From positions 62,001 through 126,000 of the forward strand of contig MKWP01000016.1 in assembly GCA_001899805.1 (NCBI GenBank): a stretch of DNA of 64,000 nt, given 5' to 3'. A program made the position numbers and the translations under genes. The notes below the pieces were generated by a model. It saw nothing but the letters and a program-made list of their open reading frames with translations, made no database searches and had not been told where the DNA came from. This document shows positions 19,724-36,079 of the stretch, piece after piece. Source of the stretch: Lysobacterales bacterium 66-474 (GTDB lineage Bacteria > Pseudomonadota > Gammaproteobacteria > Xanthomonadales > Rhodanobacteraceae). Position 1 is the stretch's first letter. Each line of letters starts with the position of its first letter.

Positions 19724-22399
19724 ATGCCCGCCTACAATGCCGCGATGGATCGCGCCGACTTCCCGATCGCCCCGCTGCTGCCGCGCATCCGCGCGTCGTT
19801 GCGCGAACATCCGCGACTGGTGCTGGAAGCGCCGCCGGGCGCAGGCAAGACCACGCAGGTGCCGGCCGCGTTGCTCGACGAAGCCTGGCTGGCGGGCCGC
19901 AAGATCGTGGTGCTCGAACCGCGCCGGATCGCGGCGCGCGCGGCGGCGGAGTTCATGGCCGCGCAGCGCGGGGAAGCGGTCGGACAGACGATCGGCTATC
20001 GCATCCGTTTCGAGTCACACGTATCCGATGCAACCCGCGTCGAGGTGGTCACCGAGGGCATCCTGACGCGGATGCTGCAGGACGACCCGGAATTGCCGGA
20101 CGTCGGCGCGATCGTGTTCGACGAATTCCACGAGCGGCATCTGGCCGGTGACCTGGGCGCGGCGCTGGCGCTGGACGTGCAGGCGTCGTTGCGGCCCGAG
20201 CTGCGCATCGTGGTGATGTCGGCGACGCTGGAAGGCGAGCGCGTGGCACAATGGTTGAATGCGCCGCTTCTGCGCAGCGAGGGCCGCGCGTTTCCGGTGC
20301 GCATCGTATACCCGCCCCCACGGCGCGGGGAGAACGAGCTCGCGCATCTGCGTCGCGTGGTGCTGCAAGCCCTGGACGAAACCGATGGCGACGTGCTGGC
20401 GTTCCTGCCGGGGCGGCGCGAGATCGCGCAGGCGCAGCGAATGCTTGCAGCAGCTTTGGATACCAAACAAGCGGTGCGCGCTTTTATCCCTCTCCCTCCG
20501 GGAGAGGGTGGCGCGCAGCGCCGGGTGAGGGTCCGGGACCGTGCGCAGGACTCGAACCCTCACCCCAACCCCTCTCCCGGGGGGAGAGGAGATCCAATCG
20601 GCGAATTTGAAGTTCTAGTGCTGCACGGAGAGCTTGCGCTGGCCGAACAACAGGCTGCGCTCGCGCCGGGCGAAGCCGGCACGCGCCGCGTGATCCTCGC
20701 CACCAACGTTGCCGAATCCTCCATCACGGTGCCGGGCGTGCGTGCGGTGATCGACAGCGGACTCGCGCGCGAGCCGCGTTTCGACCCGAACTCGGGGTTC
20801 ACGCGGCTTGCCACCGTCAACATTTCGCAAGCATCCGCCGATCAACGCGCCGGGCGCGCGGGCCGACTTGCGCCGGGCAGCGCCTACCGGCTGTGGCCGG
20901 AAAGCAAGCGCCTCGAGGCCTCGCGCATGCCGGAGATCATGCAAGCCGAATTGTCGGGACTCGCGCTCGAGCTCGCGGCATGGGGCGTCGGTGCGGATGC
21001 CGGAGTGATGCATTGGTTGGATGCGCCGCCGAAGGGTGCGCTGGCCGCCGCCCGCGATCTGCTGCAACGGCTCGGCGCCATCGATGCCGAACTGCGCGTC
21101 ACGCCGCTGGGCCGCGAGATGCTGCAGCTGGGTGCAAACCCCCGCATGGCCGCCGCCGCACAGCGTGCGCCGGATGCGCTGCGCCCGCTGCTTGCCGACC
21201 TGCTCGCACTGGTGGACGCACGCTCACCGCTGCGGGGGGCGTTCAACGATGACTTGCGCGCGCGCGTCGCTGCGTTGCATCGCTGGCGCGACGGCGGCCC
21301 ACGCGTGGTACGCGACGCGGACAGCGGCGCCCTGTCCGCGATCGAGCAGGCCGCGCGCGGCTGGCGCAAGCGCCTCGGCATTCTGCACGGCGCCAGCGGC
21401 ACGCCGGATGCGTTGAGCGTGGGCAACCTTTTGTTGCACGCGTTTCCCGATCGCGTGGCGAAACAGGATACGAAGGACCCGCGTCGGTATCTGCTCGCCA
21501 ACGGTCGCGGCGTGCGCCTGCACGACGACTCCGGCTTGTTCGGGGAACCCTGGCTGGTCGTCACCGAGGCGCGCTTCGATGCGCGCGACAGCCTGGTCCT
21601 GGCCGCGGCGCCGTTCGATGCCTCGCTGCTGGAACGCGATTACCCGCAACGCTTCGTGCGCGAACGCGTGGTGAAGCAGAACGCGAACGACGTGGTCGAA
21701 GCTTTCGAGGAGCGTCGTTTCGACGCCATCGTGCTGGAGCGCCGCTCTGTTCCCGCGGAAGCGGAGGACACATTGCCCGCGCTGCTGGCGACGATCCGTG
21801 CGCGCGGTCTCGCGTCGCTTCCGTGGAGCGATGCGGCGCTGCGCCTGCGCGCGCGGATCGAGTGGCTGCGCCGCGTGATGCCGGAAGCCGGTTTGCCGAA
21901 CGTCGCCGACGATGCGCTGCTGGCGGCACTGGGAACCTGGCTGGCGCCCGTGCTCGCCGGCAAGCGCAAGCTGGGGGCGCTGTCGTCGGAGGACTTGTCG
22001 AATGCACTGGCCGGCCTGCTCGACTGGCCGCAGCGCAAGCTGCTGGAAGAAGCCGCACCCGATGCGCTCGCGATGCCGAGCGGAATGACGCGCAAGCTCG
22101 ACTACGCGGCGGCAGTGGACGGGGAATCGAACGCGGCGTCGCCGGTGCTCGCGGTGAAACTGCAGGAACTGTTCGGGCTGGCCGAAACCCCGCGCGTCGC
22201 CAACGGCCGCGTGCCCGTGATGTTGCACCTGCTCTCGCCCGGCGGTCGCCCGATCCAGGTCACGCAGGACCTGCGCGGCTTCTGGGATCGCACCTATGCC
22301 GAAGTGAAAAAGGAATTGAAGGGTCGTTATCCGCGCCATCCATGGCCAGACGATCCATGGAACGCAACACCCACCCATCGCGTCAAACCCCGTCGATGA
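19724..22399 (+). CDS. hrpB: ATP-dependent RNA helicase HrpB with in-frame repeat insertion
   Basis: This is a DEAH-box helicase of 891 residues. The start MPAYNAAMDRADF is preceded by GGAGG at 8 bases; MDRADF at 19745 is an alternative. Motifs in order are APPGAGKTTQVP (I), FDEFHERHLAGDL (II, DEFH), VMSATL (III), LATNVAESSITVPGV (V) and QRAGRAGRLAPG (VI). The HrpB C-terminal domain ends near FWDRTYAEVKKELKGRYPRHPWPDDP. At about residues 255-290 a peptide of about 38 residues (LPPGEGGAQRRVRVRD..., NPHPNPSPGGRGD) interrupts RecA domain 2. It is encoded by a CCCTCTCC-type repeat that keeps the frame open. The residues on both sides fit a continuous HrpB alignment without it. Confidence 0.9.
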   Translation: MPAYNAAMDRADFPIAPLLPRIRASLREHPRLVLEAPPGAGKTTQVPAALLDEAWLAGRKIVVLEPRRIAARAAAEFMAAQRGEAVGQTIGYRIRFESHVSDATRVEVVTEGILTRMLQDDPELPDVGAIVFDEFHERHLAGDLGAALALDVQASLRPELRIVVMSATLEGERVAQWLNAPLLRSEGRAFPVRIVYPPPRRGENELAHLRRVVLQALDETDGDVLAFLPGRREIAQAQRMLAAALDTKQAVRAFIPLPPGEGGAQRRVRVRDRAQDSNPHPNPSPGGRGDPIGEFEVLVLHGELALAEQQAALAPGEAGTRRVILATNVAESSITVPGVRAVIDSGLAREPRFDPNSGFTRLATVNISQASADQRAGRAGRLAPGSAYRLWPESKRLEASRMPEIMQAELSGLALELAAWGVGADAGVMHWLDAPPKGALAAARDLLQRLGAIDAELRVTPLGREMLQLGANPRMAAAAQRAPDALRPLLADLLALVDARSPLRGAFNDDLRARVAALHRWRDGGPRVVRDADSGALSAIEQAARGWRKRLGILHGASGTPDALSVGNLLLHAFPDRVAKQDTKDPRRYLLANGRGVRLHDDSGLFGEPWLVVTEARFDARDSLVLAAAPFDASLLERDYPQRFVRERVVKQNANDVVEAFEERRFDAIVLERRSVPAEAEDTLPALLATIRARGLASLPWSDAALRLRARIEWLRRVMPEAGLPNVADDALLAALGTWLAPVLAGKRKLGALSSEDLSNALAGLLDWPQRKLLEEAAPDALAMPSGMTRKLDYAAAVDGESNAASPVLAVKLQELFGLAETPRVANGRVPVMLHLLSPGGRPIQVTQDLRGFWDRTYAEVKKELKGRYPRHPWPDDPWNATPTHRVKPRR
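20488..20590. repeat. CCCTCTCC-type inverted-repeat element inside hrpB
   Basis: This element of about 103 bases is made of two hairpins, CCCTCTCCCTCCGGGAGAGGG (shown as one arm pair) at 20488-20508 and CCTCTCCCGGGGGGAGAGG at 20571-20589. Perfect inverted 10-mers, GGGTGAGGGT (20523-20532) and ACCCTCACCC (20556-20565), link the two. The same 15-base start and GGGTGAGGGT end occur in the intergenic element at 35905-36057. Confidence 0.75.
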
Positions 22400-35854: not shown

Positions 35855-35904
35855 GACGCGGGACCGGGACGGCAGCGGGCGAGTATAACTTTCGCGCGAT
35901 GTTT

Positions 35905-36057
35905 CCCTCTCCCTCCGGGTGAAAGGCTGTGGTTGCGAACTGCCAGTGGCAGTTCGCGCCGGCTCGAACGCCCGAGGCAGGGCGCCGAGGGCCAAGTTGC
36001 TTGGCGAGCGCCGGATGCGCGGGCCTGGCAACGGTGCCAGTAGGGCGGGTGAGGGTT
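35905..36057. repeat. CCCTCTCC-type repeat element between waaA and the permease gene
   Basis: This roughly 153-base intergenic element starts CCCTCTCCCTCCGGG and ends GGGTGAGGGT, the same ends as the element inside hrpB. Its middle is different and includes a perfect hairpin GCGAACTGCC-AGT-GGCAGTTCGC (35936-35958). The different cargo between shared ends suggests a composite or non-autonomous family. Confidence 0.65.
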
Positions 36058-36079
36058 CGGCTCCTCGCGCGGTGCCGCA

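Follow-up and report, generated by a model that had tools for sequence, protein, structure and literature searches.

Palindromic repeats within coding sequence are already known, as the palindromic elements of Rickettsia (Ogata 2000 and 2002, described in PMC10969869), as intragenic REPs (PMC3733652) and as ERIC/RU fusions (PMC2759123). The BoxC/PIT/TM repeats of E. coli are built on an intrastrand-triplex motif, 5'-CCCTCNCCCN3-6GGGNGAGGGN3GGGNGAGGG (Holder et al. 2015, PMC4666352). E. coli MG1655 has 23 such motifs, every one of them intergenic; their inverted pairs each join a type A to a type B motif, and no mobility genes were reported near them (PMC4666352). Here we describe a repeat of BoxC/PIT/TM-like architecture that lies in frame within the helicase gene hrpB.

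Within the window (the whole 64,000-nucleotide stretch of DNA that was analysed), the first-pass annotation had placed an inverted-repeat element inside hrpB at positions 20488-20590. Both the element and its limits were borne out. The insert is a 103-bp inverted pair of repeat units composed of the blocks CCCTCTCCC-GGGAGAGGG-GGGTGAGGG (Table 1), and a covariance model constructed from the other genomic copies, with hrpB excluded, matched exactly these positions (E=2.6e-20). The unit pattern matched the window twice and matched none of 100 shuffles, the facing units reading CTCTCCCTCCGGGAGAGGGTGGCGCGCAGCGCCGGGTGAGGG on the + strand and CTCTCCCCCCGGGAGAGGGGTTGGGGTGAGGG on the - strand. The predicted fold was 6.7 SD more stable than that of shuffled sequences as DNA (-43.5 kcal/mol, z -6.7) and was likewise stable as RNA (-84.8 kcal/mol, z -8.2). 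The mini-hairpin within the second loop of the long-loop units occurs among the copies as GGCGC..GCGCC, GCCCC..GGGGC and GCCGC..GCGGC; three of its five pairs show changes on both sides and 100% of the cells are paired, although these compensatory changes may represent few events because the copies are related.

Table 1. Positions in the window of the inserted repeat, its parts and its host gene.
Feature	Position	Strand	Evidence
hrpB, DEAH/RHA ATP-dependent helicase, 884 aa, host of the insertion	19745..22399	+	TIGR01970, HrpB_C Pfam, start codon read
Codons of the predicted disordered loop (model residues 240-284), motif-IV helix to next RecA2 strand	20465..20599	+	AlphaFold2
Inserted inverted pair, long-loop unit then short-loop unit, BoxC/TM-like	20488..20590	+	Covariance-model match; genome-wide units
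Long-loop (L) unit: CCCTCTCCC-TCC-GGGAGAGGG, 14-nt second loop, GGGTGAGGG	20488..20531	+	Pattern match; 18-copy alignment
Mini-hairpin GGCGCGCAGCGCC in second loop of L unit	20510..20522	+	Compensatory changes among copies
Inner stem GGGTGAGGG (20523-20531) / CCCTCACCC (20557-20565), joining the units around a variable spacer	20523..20565	+	Invariant, 18 copies
S unit (short second loop), which faces L	20557..20590	-	Pattern match

By sequence architecture, the hrpB element is a relative of BoxC/PIT/TM; the folding analysis covered hairpin energies. The C-rich, G-rich and G-rich blocks of BoxC/PIT/TM-ECO (CCCTCNCCC / GGGNGAGGG / GGGNGAGGG) are present in both hrpB units, the S unit departing from them by a single mismatch at its end, and also in the 18-copy alignment. 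Further shared properties are inverted pairs of two second-loop types, a high copy number and no linked transposase. In contrast, the second loops measure 14 nt (L) and 4 nt (S) in the hrpB units and exactly 3 nt in BoxC/PIT/TM-ECO; because of these loop lengths and the end mismatch, we describe the hrpB copy as BoxC/TM-like rather than as a strict TM-ECO member. The strict published consensus was matched exactly at four loci of this genome, one of them inside metG. A DNA search against E. coli returned just partial matches (32% coverage, E ~0.3), and unlike the intergenic motifs of MG1655, copies here lie in frame inside conserved genes. Delihas RU-3, which is also 103 bp long, was judged unrelated by eye against its published sequence. 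The earlier reading of the element as mobile and MITE-like stands insofar as a genome-wide repeat has inserted in frame, but the repeat is BoxC/PIT/TM-like and not an anonymous MITE.

The product of the host gene matches TIGR01970 in two pieces (E=2e-289) and the Pfam family HrpB_C (E=2e-50), and the element occupies residues 248-282, counted from Met1, of the open 884-aa frame. The HMMER alignment with E. coli HrpB (6eud) covers query residues 4-237 and 290-880 and is broken exactly at the element, and alignments with E. coli HrpB 6heg and other DEAH helicases break at the same point. The site falls in RecA domain 2, after the motif-IV helix and before the strand that follows it, where the loop has 69 residues compared with 20-26 in 70 empty relatives; about 35 of the ~45 extra residues come from the element itself. 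The conserved motifs of HrpB are intact despite the insert. In the AlphaFold2 model, whose best solved-structure match is E. coli HrpB, pLDDT is above 80 for most of the protein and below 50 for residues 240-284, which are flanked by a helix (223-238) and a strand (286-292). The inserted segment is probably translated, as an extra floppy loop that is predicted to be disordered. The element had been said to invade an essential-looking domain; it does lie in RecA domain 2, but in a loop that AlphaFold2 predicts to be disordered and outside the conserved core.

The genome (3.73 Mb in 16 contigs, 99.96% complete, with its named nearest relatives in the Rhodanobacteraceae) contains 79 exact matches to the unit pattern (42 forward, 37 reverse) at ~62 loci, compared with 0 and 0 for the reversed pattern used as a control. 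Two types of unit occur: in L the second loop is a hairpin of 14 nt or similar, in S it measures 3-5 nt. L is joined to S in 16 of the 18 inverted clusters, the remaining two being scored L-L. Examination of the outer flanks of 84 units of this genome revealed that positions -7 to -2 outside the CCCTCTCCC arm are A/T-rich, in a GC-rich genome, and that position -1 outside the outer arm is C in 66 units. This bias may reflect a target preference or the true end of the element.

Of the ~62 loci in this genome, 12 are in frame, in 10 genes of unrelated function recognised by family models. Single copies were found in hrpB, mpl, icmF, metG, ubiB, lysAC and the genes for a pgeF/yfiH-like laccase-domain protein and a molybdopterin oxidoreductase, and two copies each in the genes for an Lhr-like helicase and a DNA methylase of the type III mod kind. 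The paired copies are at C7:93861 and 94998 in the helicase gene (L003) and at G000:C15:206450 and 208694 in the methylase gene (L181). Separately, two neighbouring, similar membrane-protein ORFs (L022 and L030; G000:C2:109769 and C2:111986) each carry an in-frame copy of the repeat at a corresponding loop; neither has a Pfam or NCBIfam match. In Mpl, an insert is present at the same loop in nearly all congeners read, formed by several unrelated inverted repeats, and G006 is empty. The mpl insert loop (L193-L207) lies between SARLG and FV(I/L)EADEYD, and its inverted repeats include GGGGTCAGAGTGCACTTT..AAAGTGCACTCTGACCCC (L201) and GGGGACGGAGGCAATTAA..TTAATTGCCTCCGTCCCC (L196). The UbiB loop contains the repeat in G003, G008 and G012 and is empty in G002, G004, G005, G006 and G009.

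Comparison of HrpB from 105 distinct species-level genomes, with the loop measured between FLPG and LHGE/D, showed that the insertion is absent from many close relatives and that the peptide is not common to the HrpB family: the loop is empty in 73 of the 105 proteins, with a length of 20-26 aa in the 70 empty loops measured. Loops with a full repeat are 42-84 aa long, so that their lengths and those of empty loops are bimodal. With the covariance model that excluded hrpB (E<0.01), 18 HrpBs, among them that of the window, matched the element in their RecA2 loop; relative to hrpB, the orientation is L-S in the window and four others (L034, L036, L075 and L117) and S-L in the remaining 13, and L127 was also read by eye as S-L. 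The same loop contains a C/G variant palindrome in congeners (L032, L038) and GTAG-REP-like repeats at L033 and L041 (genomes G001 and G009); remnants, variants and GTAG-like cases were all classified by eye. Because many of the non-empty loops hold the same or other repeats, the event is recurrent and not unique. In Rhodanobacter, L073 retains a short hairpin remnant where its sister L065, with a 93% identical HrpB, has the full element, which indicates that an insert can also become shorter without loss of frame. The C-terminal loop of HrpB offers another in-frame site, which is filled in the congeners G004, G008, G013 and G014. The HrpB loops of L099 and L127 show a further palindrome, CCCGGATCAAGTCCGGGGC-like, that appears to be nested in the BoxC-like insert. 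All relatives are different species, with HrpB at most ~83% identical to that of the window, and for this reason the exact insertion points are unreadable. Across the related bacteria, palindromic repeats appear to have repeatedly entered and left this HrpB loop, as well as loops in further core proteins such as Mpl and UbiB, with the reading frame kept.

One alternative explanation is a single old insertion that the common ancestor of these families already carried, and that later diverged, underwent gene conversion with copies elsewhere and was lost in places. On an HrpB tree built with the loop columns removed, full BoxC loops (a by-eye set, also n=18, in which L127 replaces the shortened L066) and empty loops required at least 10 presence changes, compared with 12-18 for shuffled labels, and presence is therefore somewhat clustered, as an old insertion would predict. 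Likewise, G000, G005 and G010 have a common orientation, a common 3' frame and a similar spacer in the HrpB loop, and because of this they may represent one old insertion, in which case the filled loops are not all separate events. However, a single gain would require 24 losses on the tree, each restoring a loop of 20-26 aa, and would leave unexplained both the two orientations and the unrelated palindromes in the same loop. We consider this explanation unlikely.

If instead the repeat had evolved to code for a beneficial peptide (PLPPGEGG..NPHPNPSPGG) that adds a function to HrpB, its in-frame presence in many core genes would be expected. Yet frame and orientation differ from host to host, yielding unrelated peptides, the segment is predicted to be disordered (AlphaFold2), and an average of 2.94 of the six frames of the element are open compared with 3.24 in shuffles and 3.86 in flanks. 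Since shuffling leaves at least as many frames open, the element is tolerated and not made for coding, and where it is open in frame within a host, this suggests that selection acts on the gene that carries it. We therefore rejected an element optimised for open frames and regard a strict protein-coding function as very improbable. The likeness to the Rickettsia palindromic elements, which the first-pass annotation had pointed out, holds as regards effect. In the comparison of open frames, the element showed no sign of selection for coding. Removal or skipping of the insert at the level of RNA or translation, for example by hairpin bypassing, would give HrpB of normal length and would suit the very stable hairpin predicted in the mRNA. 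A skipped insert need not be stop-free or a multiple of three, however, and every loop read in HrpB, Mpl and UbiB has both properties, even though stops occur in about half of the element's frames; we give this last explanation hardly any credence.

Overall, the evidence strongly favors a short non-coding repeat, palindromic and BoxC/TM-like, that spreads within Xanthomonadales genomes, with one copy inserted into the hrpB coding sequence and tolerated there. Because no transposase was found and no target-site duplication was readable against such diverged relatives, mobility rests on the comparison of filled and empty sites. A RAYT/IS200-type transposase was rejected as the mover: the 99.96%-complete genome has no Y1_Tnp/RAYT match, roughly half of the genus members searched also lack Y1_Tnp, most of them with abundant copies of the element, and the presence of the transposase in congeners does not track element abundance. 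In the mechanism we propose, repeats would insert widely in the genome, and selection would remove insertions that shift the frame, bring a stop or strike folded structure. What would remain is a small group of permissive surface loops (the RecA2 and C-terminal loops of HrpB, Mpl, UbiB, and the LysAC and MetG linkers), which in the course of time would be filled, reduced and filled again; the peptide would be tolerated ballast. The least certain step is the movement itself, which may occur by trans-mobilisation through a candidate activity recognising the single-stranded hairpins; a switch of template from one copy to another at replication seems to us a somewhat less likely route. It is conceivable, though doubtful, that insertion prefers a recurring few loops of essential proteins, beyond merely being tolerated there, such that loops seeded by a palindrome attract further, unrelated families, giving nested and replaced inserts.

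A region at 35905-36057 had been taken for an intergenic copy with the same ends. This assignment was mistaken: the covariance model of the element gave no match there at E<=1, and the body of ~160 bp is a separate repeat, with one near-complete copy and seven partial body copies in the genome, while two further matches comprise just the shared GGGTGAGGG end. We therefore excluded the region from the family. As delimited at 35900-36062, this repeat has BoxC-like ends, its near-complete copy (86%) is at C9:39602, and the seven partial copies lack both ends; it is perhaps a composite repeat.

With the Rickettsia palindromic elements, the repeats described here share a short palindromic form, many families and in-frame placement in unrelated metabolic genes (PMC10969869). 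The resemblance we draw is one of behavior, namely hosts of unrelated function, here 12 loci in 10 genes; the differences are that orientation and frame here vary by host and that the same loop is refilled by different families across species. Intragenic GTAG/CGTC REPs are also dimeric palindromes in frame in DNA-repair and helicase genes (PMC3733652), but our element has no GTAG or CGTC tag and no RAYT was found in its genome. Intragenic ERIC/RU elements are likewise small repeats fused in frame with genes (Delihas 2007, PMC2759123), but their sequences differ, and the amidase fusion is at the 3' end of the gene whereas the insertions here are inside conserved domains with empty orthologues. 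We found no paper on an hrpB insertion in the literature searched. As far as that literature shows, with few subscription papers included, what is new is the presence of BoxC/TM-like repeats in coding loops and the reuse of one loop by several families.

Holder et al. (2015) left open whether BoxC/PIT/TM repeats move. The filled and empty orthologous sites, in a coding sequence that aligns well, indicate repeated insertion of these repeats or of very close relatives, and the question of mobility can now be tested directly by comparison of strains. Our findings widen the range of coding palindromes beyond Rickettsia, to a gammaproteobacterial group of high GC content, in which several unrelated repeat families have recurrently used the same loops. 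If these loops are preferred targets, then in this lineage core proteins would evolve at their surface loops by capturing one mobile hairpin after another.
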